IMG/VR virus record: IMGVR_UViG_3300025405_000013
Coordinates: 1-64,000 of that record
Length of the DNA stretch: 64,000 nucleotides
Source: a virus
Direction: 5' to 3' (one strand)
Part shown: one piece after another, positions 761 through 44,020 of the stretch
Position numbering within the stretch: the stretch's first letter is position 1
Layout: each line of letters begins with the position of its first letter
Position numbers and translations under genes: made by a program
Notes under the pieces: model-generated
What the model saw: only the letters and a program-made list of their open reading frames with translations
Database searches by the model: none
What the model was told of the DNA's origin: nothing

Positions 761-1471
761 ATGGACACTAGTGATCTTTTAAGAACAGCCTCCAAAGTAA
801 CCGCTGACACCCAGTGGTTTAATGGGAGTTCAGAGAGCATCCTCAGCAGAATGGATCGACTTCAAGAGATCCTAGAGTCTGCTAGAATGGCCGCCTCTAG
901 ACCTAATATTAATGAAGCCGAGCTACAAAAGCTTGCCAATCTAATTACTGAAGTAGACTCTGAGAGAGAAACTCTACAGAAGTTGGCTGGTGAATGGGTA
1001 GACTATGACACCGAAGAGTATTTGCAGAGTCTTCCGGGTGGTACTATTGCTAGTTCTTACCTACTCAATAGTGAAGGCACTCTAAACTTTGGAGAAGACG
1101 ACGGCAGTTTCCTATACCGTACGGCTAGTGCAGTACAGCAAGAGTTTGCTGATGCCGACTGGATTAATTTTGTTACTGCTGGTGCCGAAGTTTGGGTAGA
1201 AGACCAAAGTCACTACCTTCTAAATGACCAACTTAACACTCGTGAAGCTGCTGTCTACTATGTGGAGCAAAAGACCCTACCGATTCTAGATGTCACTAAA
1301 CGTGCAGCTATTATCGATAACTTTGTTGATAATGTAGAAATTTGCCGCAGAGCCAAGAAGGAAGCTAGTACTCTTAGAAGTATTGAGGCCAGTAAGAAAA
1401 ACAAGTTGGCCGCTACCTTTACCGAAATGGCTATCCAGGACTCCTTTAGAGACGATCTTAACTGGCTATAA
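761..1471 (+). CDS. Unknown helical protein
   Basis: This 236-residue protein belongs to no family I recognise. It is acidic and predicted to be mostly helical, with two RTAS-type tetrapeptides (near residue 8 and near residue 121) like those in many head-region proteins downstream. A purine-rich stretch (AGAAAGAA) lies about 10 bases before the ATG. The stop overlaps the start of the Dps gene (TAATG), so the two are probably translated together. A virion or assembly role is possible but unsupported. Confidence 0.75.
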   Translation: MDTSDLLRTASKVTADTQWFNGSSESILSRMDRLQEILESARMAASRPNINEAELQKLANLITEVDSERETLQKLAGEWVDYDTEEYLQSLPGGTIASSYLLNSEGTLNFGEDDGSFLYRTASAVQQEFADADWINFVTAGAEVWVEDQSHYLLNDQLNTREAAVYYVEQKTLPILDVTKRAAIIDNFVDNVEICRRAKKEASTLRSIEASKKNKLAATFTEMAIQDSFRDDLNWL

Positions 1472-1986
1472 TGGAAAAATGGAACGGCTTTCGAGTATTA
1501 GCCGCTGAAGATCCTCAGATTGAAGCCAAAGAAGAGCAGACGTCAGATAAGTTGACTAGTGCTCTTAAAGATCTTCTATCAGCCGGTTATGTACTCTATC
1601 ATACTGCTCATGGCTTTCACTGGAATATGAAGGGTGAAGACTTTTATGAGTACCACAAGCTATTCCTCGAAATCTATGAAGACATTTACGAGAGTCTAGA
1701 CCCTATTGCTGAAAATATTGTCAAGCTTGGAGATACTGCTCCATTTGCTATGAGTCAGCTAATTGCCGATAGTAAGATTAAAGAAACTCAAGAAGTTCCT
1801 GAAGTAATTAGAGAACTAGCCAGCAAGTTCCAAGAAATGAACGCTGAGTTTATTCCTCTACTAAGAGACACTTTTGATGTAGCTAATAAAGAAAATGAAC
1901 AAGGTGTTGCAAACTTTATTGCCGAAAGAATTGATCAGCACCAAAAGTGGGATTGGTTTCTAAAGGCTTCTCTAGGAAAGAAGTAA
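1471..1986 (+). CDS. dps: Dps-like ferritin (DNA-binding, iron-storing)
   Basis: Seen: 171 residues with the Dps core HWNMKG-DF-EYH, then LDPIAE and a LG turn. H50, H62, D77 and E81 have the spacing (12, 15, 4) of the ferroxidase ligands of Dps proteins. The N-terminal extension (1-25) is acidic, so DNA binding through a Lys-rich tail is not obvious. Known: Dps dodecamers oxidise Fe(II) with H2O2, store iron and shield DNA in starved cells. Inferred: here it could protect phage or host DNA from oxidative damage during infection, or be packaged. It overlaps both neighbours by stop/start overlaps, so it is part of a translationally coupled operon rather than a stray host gene. Length is normal for the family. 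Confidence 0.9.
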   Translation: MEKWNGFRVLAAEDPQIEAKEEQTSDKLTSALKDLLSAGYVLYHTAHGFHWNMKGEDFYEYHKLFLEIYEDIYESLDPIAENIVKLGDTAPFAMSQLIADSKIKETQEVPEVIRELASKFQEMNAEFIPLLRDTFDVANKENEQGVANFIAERIDQHQKWDWFLKASLGKK

Positions 1987-2210
1987 TGGATAGTACCGCT
2001 GAAAATATTAGGAATGTTGTAGGTATTTTAACTGCCATTCTTAGTGAAGAAGAAGAAGTAGCCTACCAAATGGTTCTAGAAGCTGACCCGATTGAGCTCT
2101 TTAGTGCCCTTACCGGAATCCTACTTAGTGCACTGACCGCTATTGCAAAATCCAATGGAAGGACAGTTCAAGACTATCTAGTAGACCTAGGTATGTCGGC
2201 ATTTAATTAA
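1986..2210 (+). CDS. Unknown small protein
   Basis: The start chosen is the ATG that overlaps the Dps stop (TAATG); an in-frame ATG 39 bases upstream lies inside the Dps gene and is less likely. The product has 74 residues, with a run of acidic residues (EEEE) followed by a hydrophobic helix (LFSALTGILLSALTAIA). That helix may be amphipathic or a weak membrane segment. No family is recognised. Confidence 0.65.
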   Translation: MDSTAENIRNVVGILTAILSEEEEVAYQMVLEADPIELFSALTGILLSALTAIAKSNGRTVQDYLVDLGMSAFN

Positions 2211-2212
2211 TT

Positions 2213-2506
2213 ATGTCAGAACCACTAGAATTACCCAATGGTGTAACGATCAATAGACCGGAACAAAATCATGCAGTAGTAGAACTTCCATATGAACTAG
2301 ATGGAGAGTGGAAATGCACAAACTGTGAAGTTCACTTCCAATCTTTTCTTATTGGAGAAAACGGCCGTTATCAAGGCCAAATTAAAACCACTAAAAACGA
2401 CTCTGTAGTCTGGCAAGGACCTTTGCCCAAAGATCGAGTAAAAGCCGATAAGTTCTTACTTGATTCACTCCAGAAAAGAGTTGATTTACACAAGAAGAGG
2501 CATTAA
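2213..2506 (+). CDS. Unknown small protein with one CxxC
   Basis: A 97-residue hydrophilic protein starting two bases after the previous stop. It holds a single CTNC pair near residue 36 and a basic C-terminus (KKRH). One CxxC pair alone does not prove zinc binding. No family is recognised. Its place in the compact operon supports it being a real gene. Confidence 0.65.
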   Translation: MSEPLELPNGVTINRPEQNHAVVELPYELDGEWKCTNCEVHFQSFLIGENGRYQGQIKTTKNDSVVWQGPLPKDRVKADKFLLDSLQKRVDLHKKRH

Positions 2507-2508
2507 AT

Positions 2509-2655
2509 ATGATTAGGTACAGTCAACCAATTAAGTACAGTCAGCCCAGTGACCCTAATGGTGCTACACTGCAGGATGATGATGTTAAGGACTATAGCGG
2601 TGACGGTCAAACAAAGGCAGACTTGCTAGACCCTCTAGCAATTGACCTAGACTAA
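2509..2655 (+). CDS. Unknown 48-residue protein
   Basis: An ATG two bases after the previous stop opens a 48-codon frame ending in TAA nine bases before the phosphoesterase start. The first residues hold an internal repeat (RYSQPIKYSQPS), and the rest is rich in Asp. Tight packing between two real genes supports it. The function is unknown. Confidence 0.55.
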   Translation: MIRYSQPIKYSQPSDPNGATLQDDDVKDYSGDGQTKADLLDPLAIDLD

Positions 2656-2664
2656 AGGAAACTA

Positions 2665-3519
2665 GTGACTGAAATTAATTCAGAGGTACTAGATTTACCG
2701 GTAACACATATTATGATCCCGGATACTCAGGCCAAGCCTGGAGTACCAACTGATCATCTCTCCTGGATTGGTAATTTTATTGTTGATAACTATCACAATA
2801 AGAACATCAAAATAGTTCACATTGGTGATCACTGGGATATGCCCTCACTATCAATTTATGATAAGGGAACCAAGAAGATGGAGGGTCGTAGATACCAGGA
2901 TGACCTTGATGCCGGTAATGAAGCTTTCGAAGTGCTAAATAAGCCCTTTTACGACTATAATGAGCATCGCAAAAAGGTTAAACAAAAGCTATGGCTTCCT
3001 CCCAAGCACTTTACCAAGGGTAACCATGAAGATCGCATTGAGCGAGCTCTTAATGCTGATTCTCAGCTAGAGCGTATGTTAAAGTTGGATGACCGTCTTT
3101 TTGAGAAGCACGGTTGGACTGTTCATAGTTTTACAGAACCAGTTTGGTTAGACGGTGTAGCTTATGCTCACTACTTCTACAACCCAATGACAGGAAAGCC
3201 CCATGGTGGACAAAACATCGAAACCCGACTCAAGACAATTGGACATACTTTCTCGATGGGTCACCAACAAACCCTTATGTACGGCCTCCGATTCGTGGCG
3301 GGGAAATCCCAACACGGACTGGTCGCAGGAGCTTGTTATCTTCATGACGAAGATTATAAAGGACCGCAAGGAAACGCCCACTGGCGAGGAATCATAGTTA
3401 AACATCAGGTTAAAGACGGTTCCTATGACCCTATGTTTGTCAGTCTAGACTATTTGTGTAGAAAATATGAAGGATCTAGCCTCGAAAACTTTATGACCAA
3501 GAAATATCCCCACCTGTAA
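2665..3519 (+). CDS. Calcineurin-like metallophosphoesterase
   Basis: The 284-residue protein starts at GTG with AAGGAAA just upstream. Metal-binding blocks of the calcineurin-like family appear in order: D20-T-Q22, GDHWD (54-58), GNHEDR (119-124) and GHQQ (199-202). Later there is a histidine in SQHG and another in HWRG. Such enzymes hydrolyse phosphodiesters or phosphomonoesters with two metal ions. Phage members have been linked to DNA ends or nucleotides, but the substrate cannot be read from the sequence. It sits among unknown genes before the lysis and tRNA region. It is probably cytoplasmic, since there is no signal peptide. Confidence 0.85.
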   Translation: MTEINSEVLDLPVTHIMIPDTQAKPGVPTDHLSWIGNFIVDNYHNKNIKIVHIGDHWDMPSLSIYDKGTKKMEGRRYQDDLDAGNEAFEVLNKPFYDYNEHRKKVKQKLWLPPKHFTKGNHEDRIERALNADSQLERMLKLDDRLFEKHGWTVHSFTEPVWLDGVAYAHYFYNPMTGKPHGGQNIETRLKTIGHTFSMGHQQTLMYGLRFVAGKSQHGLVAGACYLHDEDYKGPQGNAHWRGIIVKHQVKDGSYDPMFVSLDYLCRKYEGSSLENFMTKKYPHL

Positions 3520-3546
3520 TTCTCCCGAGGAGTTAATAGAGTAAGT

Positions 3547-4566
3547 ATGGGTGCACGTAAAAATTTCAAATGCAAGTTTAATCCTTATGTCATCCCGGAA
3601 AATCGTGACTCAGTAGTACAGAGTTTGATTTCTCAATTCCAGGGGTATGATGCCGACCCTGAAGTAACTGTAACTGATAATGGTCTTATTATCACTCTTA
3701 CCACTTCTGATGAATTAACTCCCTTTGCTATTAAAGACAAACTACTCTGGAATTACTTTATAGAAACCGTTTCTACAGCCGATACTATTAGATCTATCCA
3801 GATACTTAGACTCCCTAAGTCCGGCACGACCAAGGAGGAGACAGAGGGGTCTGTCGGGGCCTATGGACCTAAGGTAGGGCCAAGTAGGAATACTGGAGTA
3901 AACGAAATCTTACTCGAAGGAACTGAAGACGGAATTACCCGGGTACCTGCCCCAGAATATAAAATAGATTTTGGTGATAGACCAGGTGGTCCACCTCTTA
4001 AGGGTCGAGGAGAATTTGTTGTGGCCACTTCTAGACGTAGAAACTTTAACAGTCGTTATGCCGACCCCGAGAGTGATGACATTCCTTTTGCTCAAGATGA
4101 AGAGGGTAAGCCCATCAACCCCGAAGTATTGAGTGATATTACCCGATTGGCTTTTGGACCAGGAGAAGCTGGTGGTAATTTTGGAGACCCTGCTGCTGTA
4201 GCTACACAGCACGGAGTAGACGTAACAAAAGGACCCAAAGAAACTGCATCTGTAGGAAGGCCTACTGGACAAGAAGAAGCTGATCCAGGAACTGCTCCGG
4301 TAATTAGATTTGACTCTTGGTTTCGAAATGATGCATTAACTGATGATAGTTTTAGAACTCGTAGTAAGAACAAGAGTGCCCCTCTACAGTTTGCTGCTAG
4401 TAGAACTGAAAGTGGTGGGGAAGAAGTAATTAATGACGAAAATGAAGCTGGTCCCAAACCCCAACTAGGAGACAGTAGTAATGTAGAGGGTTGGAGTACT
4501 ACAGCATCAATGAATTTTGGATTAAACGAGTATTACGGATTTGAAGGATTTGACAATGAACTATGA
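3547..4566 (+). CDS. Unknown protein, ordered N-terminus and long disordered tail
   Basis: A GAGGAG stretch lies upstream of the ATG. Residues 1-95 look folded (alternating strands and helices), whereas residues 100-339 are rich in Gly, Pro, Glu and Asn and look disordered. The last bases overlap the next ATG by 11. No family is recognised. The tail resembles linker regions of minor virion proteins, but this is only a resemblance. Confidence 0.7.
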   Translation: MGARKNFKCKFNPYVIPENRDSVVQSLISQFQGYDADPEVTVTDNGLIITLTTSDELTPFAIKDKLLWNYFIETVSTADTIRSIQILRLPKSGTTKEETEGSVGAYGPKVGPSRNTGVNEILLEGTEDGITRVPAPEYKIDFGDRPGGPPLKGRGEFVVATSRRRNFNSRYADPESDDIPFAQDEEGKPINPEVLSDITRLAFGPGEAGGNFGDPAAVATQHGVDVTKGPKETASVGRPTGQEEADPGTAPVIRFDSWFRNDALTDDSFRTRSKNKSAPLQFAASRTESGGEEVINDENEAGPKPQLGDSSNVEGWSTTASMNFGLNEYYGFEGFDNEL

Positions 4567-5080
4567 AGTATATGAAGCCGGAGTAGAACCCCAGAAGTTT
4601 AACCCTGGTGACTTTATTCTAGTACAAACTCACGGTTTCCTAGCCAAGTGTATTAGATTCGGACAGTGGTTTAGATACCACGGTAAAATAAAGCCCTATG
4701 CCAAATGGAATCATGCCGCTCTAATTGTAGATACCAAGGGCACTATTATTGAGGCCGCTGGTCGTGGAGTTAGATACAGTAGTATTACCGAATATATTGG
4801 TACTGAATACTATTTGGTAAATACCAAACTCAACAAGCAGAGTGCCAATCAAACGGTTGCTGCTGGCAAAAGTTTTGTAAAAGACAAGTACGGCTGGTTG
4901 ACCATCTTTAGTATCGCTCTACAGTTGGCTACTGGACTAGAAATTCAACTATCTCTAGGTAATACCGTAATCTGTAGTGCAGTGGTAAGTCAGGCACTAT
5001 GGGCCGGTGGAATTATCTTTGACAATAATCCCTATCAAATGATGCCGGCTGATCTAGCTGCTGCTTTTAACATCATCTGA
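4556..5080 (+). CDS. YiiX/NlpC-P60-like permuted papain-fold enzyme
   Basis: I chose ATG 4556, which overlaps the previous gene, over an in-frame TTG at 4541. The 174 residues hold the permuted NlpC/P60 pattern: PGDFILV (17-23), H53 in NHAALIVD, E66 in IIEAA, then the nucleophile C140 in VICSAVVSQAL and a closing MMPADL segment. This is the YiiX/LRAT-like arrangement with His before Cys. Known members cut amide or thioester bonds in peptidoglycan or lipids. The position just before a holin-like gene suggests a lysis role, but a virion or lipid-directed role is possible. There is no signal peptide. Confidence 0.75.
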   Translation: MNYEVYEAGVEPQKFNPGDFILVQTHGFLAKCIRFGQWFRYHGKIKPYAKWNHAALIVDTKGTIIEAAGRGVRYSSITEYIGTEYYLVNTKLNKQSANQTVAAGKSFVKDKYGWLTIFSIALQLATGLEIQLSLGNTVICSAVVSQALWAGGIIFDNNPYQMMPADLAAAFNII

Positions 5081-5118
5081 TAGTTGATTAATTTTAATTA
5101 CATAATTAAGGTACTAAT

Positions 5119-5304
5119 ATGAACAAGACAATTACGATTGCATACAATGCAATCAATACACAGTCTGAGATCCTTGCTGAGCAAGAGATCAAAGAAACAC
5201 TTGAGGGATTGAGCAATAGCTTAAAGACCCAAGTGCAAGACGTTAGGGTTACGATCACTAACGAAGAAAAGAAAGAAGAAAAGAAAAATGTCAAGTCCCG
5301 TTAA
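5119..5304 (+). CDS. Unknown small charged protein
   Basis: A 61-residue protein preceded by AAGG eight bases before ATG. A helical middle is followed by a highly charged tail of Glu and Lys. It overlaps the holin-like gene by 17 bases in another frame, which suggests coupling. It could be a lysis accessory protein, but nothing in the sequence proves that. Confidence 0.6.
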   Translation: MNKTITIAYNAINTQSEILAEQEIKETLEGLSNSLKTQVQDVRVTITNEEKKEEKKNVKSR

Positions 5305-5614
5305 TACAACCACTGTAAGAGCAACCGGCCGTACATTTGTTGCTGCCATTATTGGTGCTCTTATCGCTTGGGGTGCAACCAAGTGGGGTAAGTTTAACAG
5401 CGGTACATTTGCTACTCTAGTTCCTGTAGCTTCTGGTCTTTACTACACGGCCATTACCGCTCTTGAAAAGAAGTATCCGAAGCTCGGTTGGCTTCTTGGT
5501 ACTCTTCCCCAGGCCAAGGCTGTAACTCCCGCACCGGCACCGACTCCTGCTCCAGCACCTGCTGCTGCCAAGACTCCTGCCAAGCGTGGCCCTAAGCCCA
5601 AGACACAGAACTAG
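5288..5614 (+). CDS. Holin-like membrane protein
   Basis: The 108 residues contain a hydrophobic N-terminal segment (about 17-33), a second one (about 40-58), and then a Pro/Ala repeat tail that ends in a basic cluster (KRGPKPK). Two membrane segments and a charged cytoplasmic tail are typical of phage holins, which form pores and time lysis. It follows the YiiX-like gene closely. The family cannot be named from sequence alone; other small membrane proteins look alike. Confidence 0.6.
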   Translation: MSSPVNTTTVRATGRTFVAAIIGALIAWGATKWGKFNSGTFATLVPVASGLYYTAITALEKKYPKLGWLLGTLPQAKAVTPAPAPTPAPAPAAAKTPAKRGPKPKTQN

Positions 5615-5623
5615 TCTAGTTCG

Positions 5624-5699
5624 GGCCTTGTAACTCAGCGGTTAGAGTGCCACCCTGTCACGGTGGAAGTCGTGGGTTCAAATCCCATCAAGGTCGCCA
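5624..5699 (+). tRNA. tRNA-Asp (anticodon GTC)
   Basis: The full cloverleaf can be drawn. The acceptor stem is GGCCTTG with CAAGGTC, the anticodon stem CCACC/GGTGG has loop CTGTCAC, and the T-arm GTGGG-TTCAAAT-CCCAT follows. The discriminator is G and CCA is encoded. Confidence 0.95.
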
Positions 5700-5700
5700 A

Positions 5701-5772
5701 TCCCTGGTAGCTCAATGGCAGAGCAAGAAGCTGTTAACTTCGAGGTTGTAGGTTCGAATCCTACCTGGGGAG
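5701..5772 (+). tRNA. tRNA-Asn (anticodon GTT)
   Basis: Acceptor TCCCTGG pairs with CTGGGGA through two wobble pairs, D-stem GCTC/GAGC, anticodon loop CTGTTAA, T-arm GTAGG-TTCGAAT-CCTAC. CCA is not encoded. The first anticodon-stem pair is A-G, a mismatch. It starts one base after the CCA of tRNA-Asp, so the two are probably cut from one transcript. Confidence 0.92.
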
Positions 5773-5776
5773 CTTG

Positions 5777-5863
5777 GGAAGAGTGGCCGAGTGGTTAAGG
5801 CAGCTGTCTACTAAACAGCCGTAGGTTTATAGCCTACCGAGGGTTCGAATCCCTCTTCTTCCT
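5777..5863 (+). tRNA. tRNA-Ser (anticodon ACT)
   Basis: This is a class II tRNA. Acceptor GGAAGAG pairs with TTCTTCC, D-stem GCC/GGC, anticodon stem GCTGT/ACAGC with loop CTACTAA, long variable arm GTAGG-TTTATAG-CCTAC, and T-arm GAGGG-TTCGAAT-CCCTC. The stem fixes the anticodon as ACT, which reads AGT. Bacteria normally read AGT and AGC with GCT, so A at position 34 is unusual. AGT is very common in this phage's genes. No CCA is encoded and the discriminator is T. Confidence 0.85.
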
Positions 5864-5959
5864 CTAAGAAGGATGCCGGTAACCGTAAGGCCCGGAAGTA
5901 TCGTGAGTCATACTGCTCTAGACCCCACCTGTACACGATATGGTGCGACTCCTTCTGAC

Positions 5960-6112
5960 ATGAAAAATAAAAGACTATCAATAGAAATTCCAGAGAGACT
6001 GTATAATAGAATAGTTAGAGTATCAGAACTTTTGGGTTATAGTAATCCAGATGATTTTATAGAATACTACCTATCACTAAACTTACAGATATTTGATACG
6101 CCTGAAGAATAA
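5960..6112 (+). CDS. Small ribbon-helix-helix-like protein
   Basis: From ATG 5960 the product has 50 residues. It shows a strand (KRLSIEIP), a helix with ERLYNRIVRVSELLG, and a second helix from PDDFIEYYL, the layout of a ribbon-helix-helix DNA-binding protein. An earlier in-frame ATG at 5873 would add 29 residues that do not fit the fold, and its only AAGGA touches the start codon. No clear Shine-Dalgarno precedes 5960 either, so the start is uncertain. It could be a small regulator. It sits inside the tRNA cluster, where such genes are often cargo. Confidence 0.55.
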   Translation: MKNKRLSIEIPERLYNRIVRVSELLGYSNPDDFIEYYLSLNLQIFDTPEE

Positions 6113-6115
6113 CAT

Positions 6116-6186
6116 TCTGGGATCGTATAATGGCAATACGGCGGGTTTTGGTCCCGTTAATCGAGGTTCGAGTCCTTGTCCCAGAA
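6116..6186 (+). tRNA. tRNA-Gln (anticodon TTG)
   Basis: Acceptor TCTGGGA/TCCCAGA, D-arm with GTA-TAC closing pairs, anticodon arm GCGGG-TTTTGGT-CCCGT, T-arm CGAGG-TTCGAGT-CCTTG. The loop gives anticodon TTG. A full CCA is not encoded. Confidence 0.92.
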
Positions 6187-6190
6187 CCGA

Positions 6191-6265
6191 GCCCTTGTAA
6201 CTCAGTGGGAGAGTATCTGTTTTGTAATCAGACGGTCGGGGGTTCGAATCCCTCCGGGGGCACCA
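6191..6265 (+). tRNA. tRNA-Thr (anticodon TGT)
   Basis: Acceptor GCCCTTG/CGGGGGC includes two wobble pairs. The anticodon loop TTTGTAA lies on a stem whose inner pair is T-T, and the T-arm is GGGGG-TTCGAAT-CCCTC. Discriminator A and CCA are encoded. Confidence 0.92.
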
Positions 6266-6342
6266 TGTAAAGTTAGTGTTCTACCATAGTAGACAGTGTA
6301 TTACTAGTCCAGCGCCTTTATAGGCAGAATACGGAGCACATC
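6266..6342 (+). other. Leader between the tRNA cluster and the zinc-finger block
   Basis: ATGTAA begins at 6265 and is followed by about 70 bases without a gene. An ACGGAG Shine-Dalgarno lies just before the ATG at 6343. I see no clear promoter boxes or terminator here. Confidence 0.4.
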
Positions 6343-6654
6343 ATGACCTCGATGTTCGATTACAACGATGAAGTAAATCTCGTTTTTGATGCCAAGATTG
6401 CCGGTAAGAATCTGGTTACCGCCAAGCATGAAGTTCTTACCAAGACCGGAGAGTTTCTCTTCTTGGCCCACTCTGATCGTGAGTTTGCCTACCGTTGCCA
6501 GATGGTAGAAGAAGACATCGAAAATGTTGCCCGTAGAAAGATGTCCACTGTTAGTGATAGTAAGGCCAAGCTAGTTCGTGCTCTACACGAAGAGTGGAAG
6601 CTACGTCACGCTTCCTGCCTAGATTGCAAGACTGATACAAATTTTACCGTATAG
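6343..6654 (+). CDS. Zero-frame part of a zinc-ribbon protein (frameshift gene, 5' part)
   Basis: Read on its own this is a 103-residue, mostly helical protein that stops at TAG. Its last Cys pair, CLDC near residue 92, is left without a partner pair. In the -1 frame the sequence stays open for more than 2 kb and supplies CQEC 20 residues later. That gives a C-x2-C-x20-C-x2-C ribbon if ribosomes slip at AAATTTT. The short form may also be made as a separate product. ACGGAG precedes the ATG. Confidence 0.7.
   Translation: MTSMFDYNDEVNLVFDAKIAGKNLVTAKHEVLTKTGEFLFLAHSDREFAYRCQMVEEDIENVARRKMSTVSDSKAKLVRALHEEWKLRHASCLDCKTDTNFTV
6639..6645 (+). other. Candidate -1 slippery heptamer A AAT TTT
   Basis: In the zero frame the codons are ACA-AAT-TTT-ACC-GTA-TAG, so the heptamer has the X XXY YYZ form. 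Slippage moves AAT-TTT to AAA-TTT and continues as TAC-CGT-ATA-GGC. The TAG is three codons downstream. A small stem (6668-6686) follows, farther away than usual stimulators. The alternative is a one-base error in the sequence or a real inactivating mutation. Confidence 0.5.
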
Positions 6655-8858
6655 GCAACCCTGTTAAAGTAGCAGGAGCCTCTACTTGTCAAGAATGCTG
6701 GGAGGATGCACTTCCGGACAGTGACTACTGTCAAAAGCACACTCTCAATATTAGGCCTGAAAGTGCTCCCTATGTACACCATCAAGGGACCCCTGTAAAT
6801 ACCAGGCCCGGTATCTATACTGACCTTAATGACTTCAATAGAGTTTGGTATCACAATCAAAACTCTAGTCCTGAAGAGCAAGAAAACCAAGGCTTAAGAG
6901 TTGCTGGTCCTGAAGAGGCTGACGCTCTAGTTAAGCATGTTACTAAGGGTCAGTTTAAGACTGCCAAAGACTATCTTAACACTGGAGATGACGTCGATCA
7001 CAAGTTCCGAGTGCTTAATGACGGTAGTGGTCTAGAGAGTGGTTACAGAAGTCTTAAGAATCACTTGCAGCTATGGCAGAGTGGTGGAGTAACCAGTGAT
7101 CGAGTCAATAGGCCGGAAGACAGACGTCAATACCCTGGTGGTACAAAGCAAGTACAATTTACTCAATCTACCGACTATGATGATCAAGGTAATCCGGTTG
7201 TAGGCCCCGCTCATGTAACTCCTGATGACAGAAATAGAATGCCTGGTCCTTACGAACCTAATGGTATTAAGTGCATTTTCTGTGGACGGGGTAGAAATCG
7301 TCGAGAGAATTCCACCTGGCCTTCTGTGATTCCTGCTCCTGGTGGTTCTAGTACCGATGGCATCTGTAATCCATTTATTAATGGTGCTAATACTTGTAGG
7401 CCTCTAAGAGACAAGTCTGAGCGTAGTATTGTACTTCCCCCGGGGAGAACATTTAGAGAGAGTTCAACTCCGGCATTGAGTCCCGAAGACTTTGGTACTG
7501 GAGCATTTGACTCTATTGCACAACGTGATGAAGTATTGAGTGGTCGACACTTTAAGAAGTCCCAGGGTAAAAAGAAGGCCAGTCGCTTGGTCTTGGCTAC
7601 CCAGGAAGAGCTTGCTGAAGAGCTTAGGCCCCAGCCCTACCGTTCAGAACTGAACCCTAGTTCTAACCTTTATGACTACAATGATCTAGATGTTACCCAT
7701 CGGGATACAAGACTTCCAGGTATTAATTTCCATGGTGAAGATGCAGAATCACTGGCCAACTTGGGTATTACTCAAGAGCCAGAAGGATCCAATGCTGGAC
7801 CCACTCAACCGTGTCCAGTTTGTGAAGGAGCTTCCGAATTCCATGGACGAGAAGTAGGGCACTGCTCTTCTTGTAGACATGACCGACCGGGAGTTGGAGC
7901 ATGTAAGGAAGGTTCTACCCCCGGACACTGCTACGCTTGCATAGACCCTGATAGCTGCACTGGAAAAAAGACTTATACCTACCATAGCCCATTAGGAAAT
8001 GAAGGTTGTCCGGCCTGTAAAAACCGTGGGTGGATTCCCACTGATGCTGCAAAGTGTGAAGCCTGTGGTGGTAGTGGAGAAAACCTTCACCTATGTCCCA
8101 ATTGTGATGGAAATGGCTGCAACAAGTGTGACAATAAAGGCTCCTGCCCGACCTGTAACGGTATTGGGCAACTACCGGGGAGTGGGGAATCCTGCCCGAC
8201 CTGTACTATTCCGGGTCATGAGCATGTTTGCCCGACTTGTGAAGGTAATAAGCTTAGTAGAAGTATTCTAGAGAGTCACACGGGAGTTACTAGAGCTCCA
8301 GCTCAGTCTATGGGTGAAGAGTCCCCCGAACCTGATGAGCATGACGAAGGCTTTGGCGAAGACGAAGAGTTTATCCCTGGAAATAGTAACGAATACACTA
8401 ACGAAGAGATTGAGAACGAGCTAGACCCTGAGGAACAAGAGGAATATCACCGTAAGAGAGAAGAAGCCGATAGAGCGGCTCAACAAGAGCGTAGACGTCA
8501 AGAGAATGAATCACGTATTCGATTTGAAGAGCATAATACAGCAGAGACGAGAGCGGGTTGGGGACAAAATGGTGCTATCCCCCTTGCTGACCCCGAAGTG
8601 TTAGATCGTTTGCAGAACTCCGTTGAAAAAGAAGAGGATGAAGACAACTCGGGAATTACTGGAACTGTTGAAACTCCTCGCAGAGAGGTGAAAGGTTGTA
8701 AGACTTGCAACTTTACCGGTAGACATCCAGAAGCTGATAGTATTGAGAGAAGCCCTGAATTTAAAGATACAGTAGCTCACTTCCTATCAAAGGGTGACTT
8801 CCAGAGAATGAATGAATATACAACTCACATGCTATCTTGCCCGAACTGTTCTAGATAA
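6645..8858 (+). CDS. Large multi-zinc-finger protein with DnaJ-like Cys repeats (-1 frame part)
   Basis: No start codon exists in this frame before GTG 7011, which lacks a Shine-Dalgarno, yet the frame is open from 6636. I therefore read it as the continuation of the 6343 gene, about 838 residues in total. CxxC pairs run through it: CQEC, CIFC, then a dense block (about 7810-8260) with CPVC, CSSC, CYAC, CPAC, CEACGGSG, CPNCDGNG, CNKC, CPTCNGIG, CPTC and CPTCEGN, and a last CKTC and CPNC. CxxCxGxG is the signature of the DnaJ cysteine-rich domain, which binds zinc and unfolded protein. There is no J-domain (no HPD). An acidic, charged coiled-coil-like stretch follows (about 8300-8520). It may be an assembly chaperone or a minor head protein; neither is proved. 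Confidence 0.7.
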   Translation, partial: YRIGNPVKVAGASTCQECWEDALPDSDYCQKHTLNIRPESAPYVHHQGTPVNTRPGIYTDLNDFNRVWYHNQNSSPEEQENQGLRVAGPEEADALVKHVTKGQFKTAKDYLNTGDDVDHKFRVLNDGSGLESGYRSLKNHLQLWQSGGVTSDRVNRPEDRRQYPGGTKQVQFTQSTDYDDQGNPVVGPAHVTPDDRNRMPGPYEPNGIKCIFCGRGRNRRENSTWPSVIPAPGGSSTDGICNPFINGANTCRPLRDKSERSIVLPPGRTFRESSTPALSPEDFGTGAFDSIAQRDEVLSGRHFKKSQGKKKASRLVLATQEELAEELRPQPYRSELNPSSNLYDYNDLDVTHRDTRLPGINFHGEDAESLANLGITQEPEGSNAGPTQPCPVCEGASEFHGREVGHCSSCRHDRPGVGACKEGSTPGHCYACIDPDSCTGKKTYTYHSPLGNEGCPACKNRGWIPTDAAKCEACGGSGENLHLCPNCDGNGCNKCDNKGSCPTCNGIGQLPGSGESCPTCTIPGHEHVCPTCEGNKLSRSILESHTGVTRAPAQSMGEESPEPDEHDEGFGEDEEFIPGNSNEYTNEEIENELDPEEQEEYHRKREEADRAAQQERRRQENESRIRFEEHNTAETRAGWGQNGAIPLADPEVLDRLQNSVEKEEDEDNSGITGTVETPRREVKGCKTCNFTGRHPEADSIERSPEFKDTVAHFLSKGDFQRMNEYTTHMLSCPNCSR

Positions 8859-8866
8859 GAGAAATT

Positions 8867-9460
8867 ATGAGTAGAGTTATTACAGCTGCATGGTTTGCAT
8901 CAGACAATAGATTTTGCCCCTTAGCAGAGGAACACCAAAAATGTGGTGTTTGTGGACTTCCTCCACAAATGCATGAAGTCCCGGGAGCAGATATTAATGG
9001 ACAAAGAATTTCATTTAACCCTCAAGGGCATACTTTTGCTCCTCCATATAGAGCCCCTGAGGCCGAACGAGTAACTCATAACCCAGATCAACCGTGTGTA
9101 GTCGAAAAGATTGTAACTCAACATCCAACTCTAGCTCGACTATGGGGCCTAGAGGGTTCCAAATGTAGCTATGGACAGTTACCGGGCAAGGAGTTTAACT
9201 CCACACAGCAATTTAGTCATGCTTTTGTTCACAGAGATACAGTTACTCCTTGCTGTACTGCTCATCGCGATCTACTAGAGCGAGAGTTTGGAATGAATTT
9301 GGGCAATCTCGGATTGGCTGACATCATCCACTCACTTGCCTCAGATGCTAGCCCCCATGAAACTCGTACACAAGTTACTATTAATAGAGCAAGAGAGGGT
9401 ATGCTAACCGCTCAAGAGAAGAAGTGGCTAAATGCCCAGGGCCAAAGAGGACCACAATGA
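8867..9460 (+). CDS. Zinc-knuckle protein paralogous to the next gene's N-terminus
   Basis: 197 residues. The N-terminal motif CGVCGLPPQMH followed by GHTFAPP matches CQACGLTEAQH and GPHAF in the next protein, so the two share a small Cys/His knuckle (C-x2-C-G-L...H...H-x-F). Further Cys/His residues (CC and nearby His near residue 130) could complete another site. The stop overlaps the next ATG (ATGA). The function is unknown; the shared knuckle suggests duplication within the block. Confidence 0.7.
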   Translation: MSRVITAAWFASDNRFCPLAEEHQKCGVCGLPPQMHEVPGADINGQRISFNPQGHTFAPPYRAPEAERVTHNPDQPCVVEKIVTQHPTLARLWGLEGSKCSYGQLPGKEFNSTQQFSHAFVHRDTVTPCCTAHRDLLEREFGMNLGNLGLADIIHSLASDASPHETRTQVTINRAREGMLTAQEKKWLNAQGQRGPQ

Positions 9461-12400
9461 AATTTCGTTTTGTTAAGAGTTCAAACACAGAAGACACCTG
9501 CCAGGCTTGTGGACTTACCGAGGCCCAACACCCGGAAACCCACCTTATCAATCCTGATGTTGGTCCTCACGCATTTATTACCACCCAGCACAGTCATGAA
9601 CTAAAAAAGAATTGCTGGTTACATGACGAAGCAGGCTTTGGTGATGCTTTTGGACGTAGTGCCCTTGGAGAAGAGTTTCCAGACCGCATTAATGTCATTA
9701 GCCCTTCACGTGGCAATAGGTGGTTTAAGTCACAGACGGTAGAAACTGAGGCTCGTCCTGACAAGAAGGTAAAGGAACTATGTAAGATTCACGGTCGTGA
9801 GTGCAGAGGGAAGATTAACCCTGACGCTCGTGAATTTAAGCTACCTGACCCAGAATGTGCACCTGGTGCTCCTGTTATGAAGAAGAATGATGATGGTTCA
9901 CTAGAGCAAGTGGCAGTTGGTATGGGTGATGGCCGTGTTAAGCCACTTCCTGGCCAATTTCGCACTTGTTCAACTTGCGGTGGTAGTGGAACACGTACTA
10001 TTAATGACAAGAGTGGTACCAGAGAAGGACCCTGCTTAAGTTGTAAGGGTAGTAAGGTACAAGACACAGACGTAGACGGTTACTACCCTTGTGAAAACTG
10101 TGTACACTCTGACGATGAAGGAGTCCGAGTTTCTACCGGAGAGCTATTCTCCACCCCTGACAACACTCACAAGCCTTGTGGTGGTAGAGGTTGGCGTGAA
10201 AGACTAAGTATCGGTCGTGGAACCAGGTACAAGAAGAATACCACGGGTTTTGGTACACCTGTGTTTTCTATTAGCTGCCCCCACCATGATGTTATTTATA
10301 AGTCACTGCCTAACCCCGACTGCCCGGTCTGTAAGGGTACGGGTGAGCATCAGGGTAAAGAATGTCTTTGCCGAGCCACTCACACTGGGCTTGGTGCAAA
10401 CGGTAGTGCTCTCCCCGAAGGCCTAAGAGGACATATTCCACTAGCATGGATGGCTCGTTTTGCTGGTTCTCCCACTCGTTTTGTTGATACTAGTCTGTCG
10501 CCTAATGCTACTCATGCAGAAGGTATTGGCGCTGATCTTAATGACCCTGCAACTCGTAGGTTCCTTACACCTATTCAACGACTTAAGGATATGAATAAGT
10601 GGCCTCGCACTGACCGAGCACTCCCCGTCAAGTACGTTAAAGATCCAACGTCTGGCTCTCTACCAGGCAACCCCAGTGCTAGACCAGAAGTGGGACCATT
10701 ATTCCCCGGTAGGTCAGTTAAGGTCGGCTACCTAACCCCAGGATTTGATTGGCAACACCCGGATGTACAGGGAGCTATGTCCGGAGCTAGTAGTAATCAA
10801 AAGCCCGGTCGTTGGACTCTAGGCCATTCTCTTACCAGTCTAAGGCGTTTGATCAATAGTCGAGGTTCTCTCCCCCTAGAAGTGCCAGGACCCAATCCTT
10901 ATGGAGAAGATGGCACTCGCACTAAGATTAGTAGAACACTGCGTAGAGTCTTTAACCGACGATTTGCTATGCAACCGCCTACTGATGAAGAAGACCCATT
11001 TGCAACTCCAAGCCCATATGGCACTTCAACTCAATCAGTCGGTGATAAAAAAATTATAAAGCCCCTCGGTGAAGAAGTCACTGAAGTTAATGGACCCATT
11101 AGAACACTTAAGCCGGATACTCCTGAATACCAGGACCGTTTGGACTCTATTAACGAGCGTGAACGTGCAATGAGACTTATGGGAGTTCCTCCTACTCGAC
11201 AAAAGAGTGATGTTGACCGTCAAAATGCTGTAGATACAGTTGGAGACTTTCGTAAGTTAGTAGATGATAGAACTAATGAGGTTAAGCATCAAAGCCCATG
11301 TGAATGTGTTCAAACTCAAAGCTGTCACTGCACTAAGGGTGGCACTCTAAGTCCCAGACGAGGATGTGGTTCTTGTGTAGGCACCGGAAATAAGCTTGTA
11401 AGTAACCCACAGAGTGACTGTGCACTATGTCATGGACTTGGCTATACTCCAGAAGCCGGTAATAGCTACCTAGGTGGAGATGCTATAACCACTAGAAATA
11501 CTCAGCGTAATATCCACGAAGAAGTATGTCAGCCTGGTGGATTTACCGACAGTATGCATCCACTTCCGGGTTGTGTTGACCAATGCCCCAAGAAAAAGTG
11601 GTGGGACCAGGCTCGTAAGGCTCTTATGGGTCGTGGTGAAAACCAGCAAGATGTACCGGGTCTAAGCAAGCCTCGTGGTCGTGATAGAGGCCGTAGAATC
11701 CTACGATCTTTTACCCACCCCAAGAGTTGGCAAACTGGCCCTGAACGAGTTGACGGGTCATTTAGGCCACTTCCTGAAGCACTAGAGATGCACTCTAATC
11801 ATGACTCTAGTGATGGTCACATGTGTACTCCTGGACACTTTGGCCGTATATTTAGTGAGGGTAATCCCCACCCGTATATTTCTACGGGTAATAGCACTCT
11901 GGGTATGGTTCTAGGTAATGACGCTTGTGAACACTGTCAAGGTCAAGAGGGCGGTTGTGAACACTGTCACTACACTGGTGATAGTCAGTCCGGTATGATT
12001 CGTGTTCTTCAAGCCTACATCCCGTCACGTGATCGTGAAGACCCGACACGAACTGATCAACTTGATCCATTCTCTCGTGCAATAACTGATACGAGTTTTG
12101 GTGGGCCTAGAAGACAACCCAATCCCGATACTGTCCGTCCGAGTGATAACTGGCACTACAACATTGTTAGTATGCACCACAGCCACTTTGCACACATTAA
12201 TAATGCCATCCTTCCTAGTCTCCTAAACTTTGGAGAGCGTAAGGTTGTAGACCGTGCCGGTAACTTCGAAGGAAGTCACTTTGGTAAGGATTACGACCCC
12301 AACAAGGAAGTTAGCGGTCGTGAGCACATGATCGCCGATAATCCGTTTGCTGAACACCATCTTCGTGAACTAGCAGTTACTGGTGGGCAAAATGGTGATG

Positions 12401-12732
12401 ATGAAATTAAGTCTTCGGTTACTAGACTTCTAAATCAGGCCGATGAAGCCAGTAGAGGGACTGCCCCTACTGTAGCCCCTAGAACTCCTAGAAGGCCCAA
12501 GAAGGACAAGACAGTTAAGACGGTTAAGTCGGACATGTCTCCAGATGATGTAGTAGGCCACATTGAAGGCCACTTGGGCCGAGGCCTAGAACCACATGAG
12601 CAGTTTGAAGTGGCTTCTAGACTCTTCCAAGGCCATAAGCCTCAGCACATTATCAATGACTTTAAGAGTCGTAATGCACAGAGTCCAACTACTGGAACTA
12701 CTGCCAAGAGAAAGTTTAACAGCCGCGTATGA
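9457..12732 (+). CDS. Giant Cys-rich protein with DnaJ-like zinc motifs
   Basis: The start is the ATG overlapping the previous stop; an in-frame GTG at 9424 lies inside the previous gene. The 1,091 residues begin with the C-x2-C-G-L knuckle. Next come CSTCGGSG and CLSCKGS, CENC, CPVCKGTG and a CLCRATH pair. A long basic, Pro-rich middle with no Cys follows, then CECVQTQSCHC, CGSCVGTG, CALCHGLG, and CEHCQGQ with CEHCHYTG. The CxxCxGxG pairs are like the DnaJ Cys-rich domain but there is no J-domain. The C-terminus has a Lys-rich linker and a helical end that stops in KRKFNSRV. It could be a scaffold, an injected head protein or a chaperone. I do not recognise a named family for the whole chain. 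Confidence 0.75.
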   Translation: MKFRFVKSSNTEDTCQACGLTEAQHPETHLINPDVGPHAFITTQHSHELKKNCWLHDEAGFGDAFGRSALGEEFPDRINVISPSRGNRWFKSQTVETEARPDKKVKELCKIHGRECRGKINPDAREFKLPDPECAPGAPVMKKNDDGSLEQVAVGMGDGRVKPLPGQFRTCSTCGGSGTRTINDKSGTREGPCLSCKGSKVQDTDVDGYYPCENCVHSDDEGVRVSTGELFSTPDNTHKPCGGRGWRERLSIGRGTRYKKNTTGFGTPVFSISCPHHDVIYKSLPNPDCPVCKGTGEHQGKECLCRATHTGLGANGSALPEGLRGHIPLAWMARFAGSPTRFVDTSLSPNATHAEGIGADLNDPATRRFLTPIQRLKDMNKWPRTDRALPVKYVKDPTSGSLPGNPSARPEVGPLFPGRSVKVGYLTPGFDWQHPDVQGAMSGASSNQKPGRWTLGHSLTSLRRLINSRGSLPLEVPGPNPYGEDGTRTKISRTLRRVFNRRFAMQPPTDEEDPFATPSPYGTSTQSVGDKKIIKPLGEEVTEVNGPIRTLKPDTPEYQDRLDSINERERAMRLMGVPPTRQKSDVDRQNAVDTVGDFRKLVDDRTNEVKHQSPCECVQTQSCHCTKGGTLSPRRGCGSCVGTGNKLVSNPQSDCALCHGLGYTPEAGNSYLGGDAITTRNTQRNIHEEVCQPGGFTDSMHPLPGCVDQCPKKKWWDQARKALMGRGENQQDVPGLSKPRGRDRGRRILRSFTHPKSWQTGPERVDGSFRPLPEALEMHSNHDSSDGHMCTPGHFGRIFSEGNPHPYISTGNSTLGMVLGNDACEHCQGQEGGCEHCHYTGDSQSGMIRVLQAYIPSRDREDPTRTDQLDPFSRAITDTSFGGPRRQPNPDTVRPSDNWHYNIVSMHHSHFAHINNAILPSLLNFGERKVVDRAGNFEGSHFGKDYDPNKEVSGREHMIADNPFAEHHLRELAVTGGQNGDDEIKSSVTRLLNQADEASRGTAPTVAPRTPRRPKKDKTVKTVKSDMSPDDVVGHIEGHLGRGLEPHEQFEVASRLFQGHKPQHIINDFKSRNAQSPTTGTTAKRKFNSRV

Positions 12733-13139
12733 ATAGACACCTAAGTTACACCGAACCTGGAATGCTCCCCGAAGAGAAGCGTAATGATAAACCGTGTAGA
12801 TTTTGTGATCTAACTTCACACGAAGAAGGTAGAGGACCAATCGTACAAACCAGTACGGCTCCAGATGGAACCGCTCTTTATGCACATGAAGAATGTGAAC
12901 CCGATGATTTTGCCTTTACTCAAAACTTTAAGTTTCCGGGTAGGCCAGTAGAGCCTCCGTTCTTGACCAGTCTACAAGATGTTATTGACACTGATGAAAT
13001 GCATTATGCTAGTGCAGACATAGAAACTAGTGTACCCACTAGTGACGGTATCCAGCCCATGCAAACGACCCAGGTCCCAATGGTAGTCCCCGGCAATCCA
13101 ATGACTCAACTAGACAATATGCCACACGGTGAAGACTAA
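12729..13139 (+). CDS. Small Cys/His zinc-finger-like protein
   Basis: 136 residues, translationally coupled to the giant protein by an ATGA overlap. CRFC near residue 24 and H-E-E-C near residue 55 could hold one zinc. The rest is acidic and Pro/Thr-rich. It is the last gene of the Cys-rich block. Function unknown. Confidence 0.65.
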   Translation: MNRHLSYTEPGMLPEEKRNDKPCRFCDLTSHEEGRGPIVQTSTAPDGTALYAHEECEPDDFAFTQNFKFPGRPVEPPFLTSLQDVIDTDEMHYASADIETSVPTSDGIQPMQTTQVPMVVPGNPMTQLDNMPHGED

Positions 13140-13210
13140 TAAATGTAATTTACGGTAGTAATTAACTTAGGATATAGATCTCAATCTATCCGGAAGAGAG
13201 AAAGACCAAC

Positions 13211-13756
13211 ATGGAACCACGTTTGAATATCAAGATCGCCGATTTATGGCAAGAAATGGGTGACAATGCACCCAACCCTGTTGACGTAGACTTCGAAAAC
13301 CCGAAACAACAACCCCAATGGGAAGGCGACTACATTAGTGTAGTAGATGACGCCGATCGTAACTGGGCTGACAAACAAAGTCTCCGTGATGACTGGGCTC
13401 AAGAAATTGACCGAGACAACTCCATTAAGCAAAACACTGATGCTGCCACCGCCACCAATAACCCGGGTTCACAGGGTCCTTGGAACATGGCTAATGATGT
13501 CAAGCAAGGCAGCAAGATCAATAAGCAGGCTAGTGGTTTTAGAAACCAGCAGGCTCGTGAGAACTTTACCTTTGGTGTAATTGCTAATGTTAACAGCGGC
13601 ACTCTAGTTAACGGTAGAGTCTATGCTGAGACACCTACTACCAAGATTGCCGGTACAGTTATCGCTGTTGGTGATCAAGAGTTTGCTGTTATCTGGGATG
13701 ACAAGACTGCCAGTGTAGAGCGTAAGAGTGACTACGAGTTGGTAGTTAAGAACTAA
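13211..13756 (+). CDS. Unknown protein at the head-module border
   Basis: 181 residues with a strongly polar first half and a C-terminal part (about 115-180) of alternating strands (GTVIAVGDQEFAVIWDD), likely a small beta barrel. It contains a KQAS tetrapeptide like many neighbours. The 70-base leader begins with ATGTAA at 13143 and holds a hairpin (stem TAGAT/ATCTA at 13175-13188). GAAGAGAGAAAG precedes the ATG. A head-associated role fits its place but is not shown. Confidence 0.7.
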   Translation: MEPRLNIKIADLWQEMGDNAPNPVDVDFENPKQQPQWEGDYISVVDDADRNWADKQSLRDDWAQEIDRDNSIKQNTDAATATNNPGSQGPWNMANDVKQGSKINKQASGFRNQQARENFTFGVIANVNSGTLVNGRVYAETPTTKIAGTVIAVGDQEFAVIWDDKTASVERKSDYELVVKN

Positions 13757-15367: not shown

Positions 15368-18300
15368 ATGTCTTCCAAGGACTGGAGTGCTTCCACCGAA
15401 TTCAGTAGAATGAAAAAGGCCGGAATCACTCTTCCCAAGAACCCGATTGCCAGTCGAGTGGCAGCACGGGATATGCTTAATAGAGCTAAAACGAGTGGCT
15501 CTATGGCCAGTGAGATTGGTCCTATGGCTATGGCCATGGGTGGGCCTCCGGAAGGTCGTCAAAGACTCAATAACCTCAAGCAGGGTTTTAGTCTAGAGGG
15601 TATGGCCAATACCCCAAATCGTAGATTGGGTGCTGCTAGTGGTTCAGACGCCCAATGGGCTTGGCCCAAGCTACATGACCCATTTGAATACTGGCGTGAG
15701 CGTACGTGGTGGTTCAATATGGAGGACCCCGATGAGCAAACGAGAAAGATCCGAGATTGGGCTCGTCTACTTTATACTACTCACCACTTGGTACCTGGTC
15801 TTATCGATATTTATACTAGGTTTCCACTTCTAGACGTTGAACTTATCCACCCGGACAAGAGAATTAGTGAATTCTATAATGAGCTGTTTTTTGACGGCTT
15901 AAATTATAACGAATTTCTATTCGACTTGGGCCGGGAGCACTGGACAGTAGGTGAAGCTTTCGCCATGGGATCCTGGCATGATGGTTTGGGTGCCTGGGAA
16001 GAAGATGAAATCATTAACCCCAATGATGTCATTGTTGCCAAGAATCGTGCCCTTAGAACATACCAATACCACATTAAGGTTCCCGACGAGATTAAGAAGC
16101 TTATCGAGCGTAGAGATCCCCCACAAGAGTATGCTATGCTTATGCAAATGTACCCGGATGTTGTAGCCTGGGCCAGACAAGACAAAGAGATTCCGGTCTC
16201 TGATGTCATTATGAAGCAACTTAAGTTTAAGTGTGTAACTCCCGACACTGACGTACTTACACCTTCTGGACCAGTACCAGCTGGAAAATTGAAGGTTGGG
16301 GACCCAGTTTTTGCCTGGGACACTGAGAATGATAGAGCTGTAGTTAGTCATGTACAGGCAAATAGTCTACGTGAGCCCGAAACTGTAGTCAAAATTACTA
16401 CAAAGTTTGGTCGTACTATTAAGACGACTCTTGAGCACCCATTCTGGATTAAGAAGACTATTAAATCAGAAAACACATGCTTGGCCTGTAATAGAACTTT
16501 TGACAATCCTAAGTCAAAGGCAGGCCATATTGGTGGTTCTAAAAACGGTTCAAACCCCCACTATTTCCCGGCTAGTTCTATAAGTCAGGAATGGGTACAG
16601 GCACAAGATCTTAAGGTTGGAGATCTAGTACGTGTTGGCTCCCATTGTAGTTTTGGTTCAGAATTCCTAGACCCAGACCTAGCTAGATTTATTGGAATGA
16701 TGATTGGTGATGGTTCATATACTAATTCTGACTTTAGTATAACTAGTAACGACCAAGAGATAGTAGACTGGACTAGAGAGTTCGTAGATAAGTATGACTG
16801 CTCTATCCCCGAAATGGCCAGTTCATCTTTGCAATACAGAATCAAGTCCAATGAAAACTCGGGTAAGAGAGCCGGAAAGACGGGGAGCAATAAGTTAATC
16901 AATCTCTTCCGTGAAGTTGGTATATTTGGCCAAACTTGTCATAATAAGATAGTTCCTCAGATTATTTGGGAGAGTGGTCCCCAAGCCTGGTGGAACTTCC
17001 TATCGGGCTACCTGGACACTGATGGTTGTTTCTTTGATGGAGACTACCCCAGAGTCTACTGGACTTCCAGTAATGAGGGACTGTTAAACGACGTACAGTT
17101 AATGCTATCTTTACTTGGAGTATCTAGTACTTTAAATGACGGTTGTGTAGTAGTACAAAATCATATTGGTCTATCAATTCTTTCTGAAAACTTAGACACT
17201 CTCCTGCCTAGAAAGCAAGTACATTCGAGGGAAGTAGTTAAGAATGTCTATAAGGATACAGTTGAATGGGACGCCGTTGAGAATATCGAAGTAATTGGAG
17301 AAGAAGTAACTTGTGCTCTAAGCATTGCCGACTACCATAGTCACATTACTGCTGGTCTTGTAACCCACAATACCAACCCGTGGAGTGAGCATGGTACCCC
17401 GATTCTTCTTAGAGCTTTTAGAATGCTTATGCTCGAAGAATCCCTTAATGCTGCTCAAGACGCTATTGCTGACCGTCTATACTCTCCTCTTATTCTGGCT
17501 ACTCTTGGTCTTCCTGATGTAGACCAGGACGGTCCATGGATCCCGGATGCTCAAGAACTCCAGAGCCTAAGAGACGACCTGGCCATGGCCATTAACTCGG
17601 ACTTCCGACTAATGACCTATCACCACGGCCTAACCATCCAGAACGCTTTTGGTCGTGAAGCAATGCCTCGACTAGACCAAGACTTTATGAGAGTACAGAC
17701 CAATGTTATGGGAGTATTCGGTATTGGTGCTGACCTTATCCAGGGTGGTCAGGGTGGTACTTATGCTGCTGGTGCTCTTAATCGTGAGCTTATTACCCAG
17801 ATGCTTTCTACCTACCAACACAAGATTGAAGCATTTATTCGTTCTCGTATGGAACCGGTTGCCGAAAGACAAGGTCACTATGAGTTCCGTAATGTAGGCG
17901 GCCAAAAGGTTCCGATTATGGAAACTGTACTTATGGTCGATGAAGAGACCGGTGCTGAATATGTAGAAGAGCGTCCAAAGCTGGCCATTCCGGAAGTCAG
18001 ATTTCGTAGTATGAACCTAAGAGATGAAACCGTAGAGCGTGGCTTCCTACAGCAACTACAGGCTTCCGGGTTTCCGATCTCTCTTGGCACTCTTGCAGTT
18101 AATATCCCCATTGACTTTGATGATGAAGTAGAAGCTCGTAAGAGTGAAAAGATCAAGACGGTTGTTGCTGAACAACAGTACAAGAAAGAACTCTTCGACC
18201 GACTAATGACTCTGCAGTTGCCTATTCCGCCGGAATATATGCAGGAATACCAGGCCTATCTAATGATGATGGAAGATCCGGCAATGGCAGCTCAATTAGC

Positions 18301-43492: not shown

Positions 43493-44020
43493 ATGATTTC
43501 TAAGAATAATGCTGGAACCTGGACGGAAGATCAAAATTCTGTCCAGGTTCCAGCCAAAGACACTAGTTTTCCAGAAGAGTGGAAGCAAGAGTTCGAAGGC
43601 CTTCTATACCTCGGTTATCTCGAGAAAGAAGTCACTCATATTCCCTTCCACCATTTTGTAGTTAGAACACTTACAGTGAACGACAAGCTAGAAGTATCTC
43701 TTCTTACCAAACCGTTTGCTGAAACCCTGGGTTACGGTAGAGCTTATAAGTCTGCTGTTGTAGCCGCTGGTCTAGTAAGTGTAGATCATCAGAGTCTACT
43801 ACCCACTCTCAAGACCGTTAATGGTGTTAGACAAAAGTATGAATACGTAGTCAATAACTGGTATGATGCCGTAGTTGACGTTCTTTTCCAGGCTATTGAT
43901 GATCTAGAGAACCAAGTGGTACTGGTTCTTGAAGCATTAAACATTATCGAACTTCCCAAGGCCTTTAGTGTCTTTGAAAAAGATAATGAGGAAACGGATA
44001 ACCCAAAAGATACGAACTAG
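43493..44020 (+). CDS. Tail assembly chaperone (zero frame, gpG-like)
   Basis: 175 residues, directly before the tape measure's upstream partner. Near its end the CCA-AAA codons form a slippery site. A leader of about 70 bases precedes it, with a TATAAT at 43448 but no good -35 box. Such proteins coat the tape measure before the tube is built. Confidence 0.8.
   Translation: MISKNNAGTWTEDQNSVQVPAKDTSFPEEWKQEFEGLLYLGYLEKEVTHIPFHHFVVRTLTVNDKLEVSLLTKPFAETLGYGRAYKSAVVAAGLVSVDHQSLLPTLKTVNGVRQKYEYVVNNWYDAVVDVLFQAIDDLENQVVLVLEALNIIELPKAFSVFEKDNEETDNPKDTN
44002..44008 (+). other. Slippery heptamer C CCA AAA of the tail chaperone
   Basis: The zero-frame codons are AAC-CCA-AAA-GAT. After a -1 slip they become CCC-AAA-AGA-TAC and the frame stays open to 44448. 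This is the canonical X XXY YYZ form at the expected place, three codons before the TAG that ends the short product. Confidence 0.85.

Follow-up and report, generated by a model that had tools for sequence, protein, structure and literature searches.

The frame break between ORF A and ORF B

The DNA analysed here (the window) comprises 64,000 nucleotides, positions 1 to 64,000 of the 70,338-bp IMG/VR record IMGVR_UViG_3300025405_000013. The window virus is a lake phage and, judged from its genes, a Bixzunavirus-related myovirus (kin of the large mycobacteriophages). The major capsid protein shows 64% identity to Mycobacterium phages, and portal, protease, sheath and baseplate genes are all present, as expected for such a myovirus. 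The gene order runs from a tRNA cluster through A and B and onward to the portal gene, with the following features:

6343-6654 (+): ORF A, short product of 103 aa with a conserved helical module (residues 1-96), ending in CLDCKTDTNFTV before the stop; 50+ relatives in IMG/VR, 29 of them distinct
6634-6654 (+): putative 21-nt frameshift cassette GATACAAATTTTACCGTATAG (slippery site, spacer and 0-frame stop), identical in L028, L032, L034 and L035, where the flanks are unrelated
6639-6645 (+): slippery heptamer A_AAT_TTT, class H_HH.U_UU.Y
6652-6654 (+): 0-frame stop TAG, two codons past the slippery codons
6653-6681 (+): putative stimulatory hairpin AGGC-CCUGUUA/UAGCAGG-GCCU, predicted at -12.5 kcal/mol, 7 nt past the heptamer
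6636-8858 (+): ORF B in the -1 frame, 740 codons, Cys-rich, with DnaJ-like CxxCxGxG motifs
15368-18874: portal gene, split by an intein that carries a LAGLIDADG endonuclease domain
23084-24097: major capsid protein (phrog_2522, E 3e-108)

ORF A has a good ribosome-binding site (GGAG), and its C-terminal end reads HASCLDCKTDTNFTV before the stop. The -1 frame is closed upstream by TGA at 6633-6635 and overlaps A over 6636-6654. The first-pass annotation had described A as ending at TAG after CLDC, the -1 frame as open over 6636-8858 without a start until GTG 7011 (the first ATG, GTG or TTG), and the heptamer A AAT TTT as lying at the frame change; a re-check of the sequence confirmed all three, with the heptamer in the correct phase within the overlap of both frames.

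B runs for 125 codons from the opening of its frame before a start appears; in every other gene of the 32 in the window with at least 200 aa, this stretch is no longer than 20 codons. Under a codon log-likelihood trained on the remaining window genes, frame 0 is preferred as far as position 6610 or so, the -1 frame takes over at roughly 6658, and over 6658-7240 every frame except -1 scores negative. The changeover in coding signal (frame 0 to -1) falls between about 6613 and 6658, far 5' of any start codon; the downstream frame looks coding from about 6655 and lacks a start of its own.

The AF2 model of A contains four helices (pLDDT 74), and no Pfam or PHROG family and no PDB fold matched it. 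Foldseek returned a 1192-aa protein of mycobacteriophage Shifa (E 0.12) and a 799-aa protein of Rhodococcus phage Finch (E 0.02), both with probability 1.0 and of low significance. Its gene position makes A a probable head-region or virion-associated protein.

Relatives of A and the shared 21 nucleotides

A was searched singly and as alignments, which gave 52 loci with 29 distinct A modules in IMG/VR; no relatives of A or B were found in GenBank phages by DNA or tblastn, and none in GTDB genomes. Generally, the family consists of a well-conserved 96-residue module followed by tails that are wholly different between relatives, with total lengths of 100-808 aa. One frame is kept in 27 of the 29 distinct relatives, the exceptions being the window virus and a group of four strain variants (L028, L032, L034 and L035), in which A is 77% identical to the window A. 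In this group, the 0-frame protein is 402-425 aa long, ends in LKESKDTNFTV before the stop and has a tail unrelated to that of the window, and the -1 frame that follows it is about 400 codons long with the first start at codon 175-186. The last 21 nt of the 0-frame ORF are the same GATACAAATTTTACCGTATAG. Between the window and L028-group A modules, 35 of 73 same-amino-acid codons are identical, while inside the cassette the figure is 7 of 7.

In 2.9 million viral contigs searched, the core 18-mer ACAAATTTTACCGTATAG occurs five times, all within the A gene. Conservation at the protein level was rejected as an explanation: synonymous variants of DTNFTV plus stop elsewhere in the viral contigs scanned have no comparable context. 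A cassette in other genes was likewise rejected, as 16-mer matches outside the A gene lack a long open frame on both sides. The heptamer is absent from the last 30 codons of gene 1 in all other distinct relatives. In the window phage, the frequency of in-frame X_XXY_YYZ heptamers (Y = A or T) is 0.16% of codons, so the chance for a 5-6-codon overlap is about 0.8%.

RNA structure is predicted 6-7 nt 3' of the heptamer in both lineages, within the 5-9 nt expected for the stimulator of a -1 site. The window hairpin has a z of -2.5, is matched in stability by 4 of 200 shuffles and ranks in the top 6% of coding 45-mers, and is by these predictions only moderately strong. The predicted L028 hairpin (UAGCA...UGCUA) reaches -19.1 kcal/mol with a z of -4.3 and exceeds in stability all 1377 sampled 45-mers of its own locus. 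The two hairpins are unrelated in sequence and lie at near-equal spacing (6 nt past the heptamer in L028). No good or clear Shine-Dalgarno-like stimulator was seen upstream in the window.

The variants of the L028 group differ by 30-nt indels and replaced blocks, and the -1 frame is still open. Their many differences in this frame are largely non-synonymous and mostly in replaced segments, so residue-level purifying selection is not demonstrated for it. Motifs were also compared by eye. The 0-frame end of the group resembles the natural C-terminus of the single-frame relative L051 (RVSSKIDSIRDYLRNN plus stop compared with ARKIARLSYFLKES), and the -1 extension contains P/A/T-rich modules ending in versions of the same motif (such as SARIAKLSERLKRSNDTNF, and SSRIAQLQNILNK plus stop). 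The window short form equals natural 100-102-aa short forms in L042 and L015. In the nearest B relatives (L003 and L015), the homologue of B is encoded separately, by the next gene, which has its own GTG; this gene matches B residues 200-563 and corresponds to the window -1 frame from residue 200 on. From these comparisons, both cases can be read as an optional C-terminal extension beyond the normal end.

Two minor observations concern these tails. Compared with L003, gene 1 of L015 lacks about 80 tail codons, lost between a pair of short repeats, and its A protein is only 102 aa long; this indicates that A tails are easily gained and lost. In L028 (position 5806), and also in L032 and L034, the -1 extension contains GATACAAATTTT (RSNDTNFIKDG) once more, in frame; a slip there would meet a stop immediately.

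The first-pass annotation also proposed that the frame change completes a zinc ribbon. In the fused reading CQEC does follow 20 residues past CLDC, and slippage may give the long form a complete ribbon (CLDC-x20-CQEC). However, the argument is weak: the terminal CxxC of A hardly varies within the family, and only 9 of 29 distinct relatives offer it, in one frame, a CxxC partner within 22 residues. The other 20, natural short forms of 100-102 aa among them, have no such partner. For the A family, an unpaired CxxC is the usual state.

In a DNA tree of A, the two cassette-carrying lineages are placed apart, and a topology that unites them is worse by 32 log-likelihood units (AU p = 0.001). The carriers are not sister lineages, and therefore the cassette has either passed from one lineage to another or been lost on many occasions; its identity at the DNA level would favour movement or very strong constraint.

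Probable programmed -1 frameshifting and alternative readings

We consider programmed -1 ribosomal frameshifting, outside the tail chaperone, to be the most probable explanation of the site (roughly 86%); it would give A an optional C-terminal extension. Most ribosomes would translate A to TAG and release the 103-aa protein. A fraction would slip back one base on A_AAT_TTT, the Asn and Phe tRNAs re-pairing on AAA TTT, and the hairpin starting 7 nt 3' of the heptamer would aid slippage. Slipped ribosomes would go on as DTNF-YRIGNPVK in the -1 frame and produce an 838-aa A-B protein, eight times the length of A, so that one gene would have an optional C-terminal extension at a fixed ratio. The occurrence of slippage, its efficiency and the roles of both products are what we infer; the frames, the heptamer, its phase, the hairpin prediction, the shared cassette and the coding signature are directly seen.

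Several results lead to this reading. The identical cassette stands in two lineages with unrelated flanks and in the same phase to the -1 continuation, the long -1 frames are start-less in both (125 codons in the window; 175-186 in the L028 group), and hairpins are predicted 6-7 nt past the heptamer in both. The coding signature switches at the cassette, the heptamer is found near the end of gene 1 in no other distinct relative, a second assembly agrees at the site, and the tail chaperone gene of this phage contains a -1 site of the conventional kind. Moreover, A_AA.U_UU.U falls in H_HH.U_UU.Y, a class listed with the most efficient ones in E. coli (PMC4066793). The short and long products proposed by the first-pass annotation are well supported by the shared 21 nt, the hairpins in both lineages and the kept start-less frames, while slippage itself is inferred. 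What would count against the frameshift reading is the absence of the cassette from 27 of 29 distinct relatives, the separate B gene with its own GTG in L003 and L015, the moderate window hairpin, the want of a good Shine-Dalgarno-like stimulator upstream, and the L028 -1 frame, which shows no residue-level purifying selection. Relatives that encode the protein in a single frame without the heptamer had been named in advance as evidence that should overturn the claim. Literally, 27 of 29 are of this kind, yet the claim is not refuted, because they have other in-frame tails, or A ends about there and a separate gene follows, and because the signal recurs in a second lineage.

It is unlikely that A simply stops at TAG and B starts separately by reinitiation, at the AUA overlapping the stop (GTATAG), at another non-canonical codon or at GTG 7011. 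The AUA overlaps TAG in each lineage, and L003 and L015 encode the B homologue separately, but AUA is a very poor start, no Shine-Dalgarno-like sequence lies 5' of it or of GTG 7011, and starting at the latter would throw away about 118 coding-like codons. The conserved 21 nt also centre on a perfectly phased slippery heptamer, which reinitiation does not need. That B is a dying extension left by a recent frameshift mutation, with A as the sole product, is quite improbable: the same break with identical sequence is found in a second, non-sister lineage, where it is kept in four strain variants, and B has 740 stop-free codons with a full coding signature, although most relatives have their tails in one frame and A alone resembles the natural 100-102-aa short forms.

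The highly variable tails after A, and the position of the cassette between unrelated sequences in two lineages that are not sisters, are also what would be seen if the 21 nt were a recombination seam or attachment site for tail swapping and the heptamer incidental. We regard this as decidedly improbable, as the sequence is single copy per genome without an inverted or direct partner, the downstream frame can be expressed in neither lineage without a -1 shift, the hairpins are positioned as stimulators, and an incidental in-phase strong heptamer has about a 1% chance. A one-base sequencing or assembly error is very unlikely indeed. The site is within a short A/T run, but a second contig (3300006125_000018) overlaps the window over 25.9 kb with 4 SNPs, none at the site, and the identical 21-mer is present in four other contigs.

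Other mechanisms were rejected. Stop-codon readthrough would soon meet more stops in frame 0 past TAG, and the runs at the site (3 A, 4 T) are too short for transcriptional slippage. An intron or intein does not fit a -1 frame that is coding directly 3' of the cassette, nor does a shufflon-like inversion fit one 21-mer copy per genome stretch examined.

Known systems and the possible spread of the cassette

Known phage frameshifting is largely that of tail chaperones, with a small number of capsid or tail-tube genes besides. In the SEA-PHAGES set, tail chaperones account for 2397 of 2476 annotated frameshifts (PMC10885494). The tail chaperone of the window phage served as an internal control; the gene pair spans 43493-44440, and its G frame precedes the long 44429 gene in tape-measure position:

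43493-44020 (+): tail assembly chaperone G frame (phrog_2792/2992, E 1e-18/2e-16)
44002-44008 (+): slippery heptamer C_CCA_AAA, with the -1 T frame after it

Like lambda-type G/GT, A-B joins a short upstream frame to a downstream frame by a putative -1 shift on X_XXY_YYZ. However, A has no similarity to tail chaperones and no Pfam or PHROG match, and it lies upstream of the portal gene, not beside the tape measure. Since the phage has its own conventional chaperone site, the A_AAT_TTT site is additional.

C-terminal extensions through frameshifting are established in phages, including T7/T3 gene 10, Lactobacillus phage A2 and Listeria phages (PMC5009743). In T7/T3 gene 10A/10B and in the capsid and tail-shaft genes of Listeria phages A118, A500 and PSA, as proposed for A, a frameshift near the 3' end of the gene yields a minor, C-terminally extended form (PMC5009743). 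Those are major capsid or tail-tube genes, whereas A, with its 103 aa, is uncharacterised and has no relationship to them; a capsid extension of the T7 10A/10B type was rejected, as the window major capsid protein is a different gene. The extension of A is also seven times the size of A, and an identical 21-mer is common to lineages with different tails. The claim of a new frameshift gene stands for the gene, but extensions of this kind outside the tail chaperone were already known (PMC5009743); the novelty lies in the gene and in the cassette common to two lineages. The -1 signals of dnaX and the IS3 family, like the A site, combine a slippery heptamer with a downstream hairpin, but their heptamers differ from A_AAT_TTT and the window site has no clear Shine-Dalgarno-like stimulator upstream.

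Gp81 of Mycobacterium phage Alice (Bixzunavirus, Ceeclamvirinae) occupies the position of A: it follows the tRNA cluster directly and precedes the portal gene. Its N-terminus gives a weak, collinear match to the A profile. Unlike A-B, gp81 is a single 1236-aa ORF, in which the long form is reached without a frameshift.

Tentatively, the 21 nt might be a portable recoding cassette, which moved between phage lineages and on landing makes a set-ratio choice between stopping and extending into a new C-terminal module, each recipient evolving its own hairpin; we hold this as possible and somewhat doubtful. With the same 21-nt signal on different tails in two non-sister lineages, the spread of recoding sites can be tested directly, and with unrelated hairpins at near-equal distance, so can the way in which a bare slippery cassette gains a stimulator. 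In practice, gene callers will cut the putative A-B protein short in cassette-carrying genomes.

The genes 3' of B (8867-12732) are Cys-rich too and contain DnaJ-like CxxCxGxG repeats, without a Pfam family. Across 761-13756 of the window and in homologous genes of L003-L014, many proteins contain recurrent F-N-[SARK]-x-A or R-x-FN motifs near their N- or C-termini, which are possibly processing sites for the head maturation protease.
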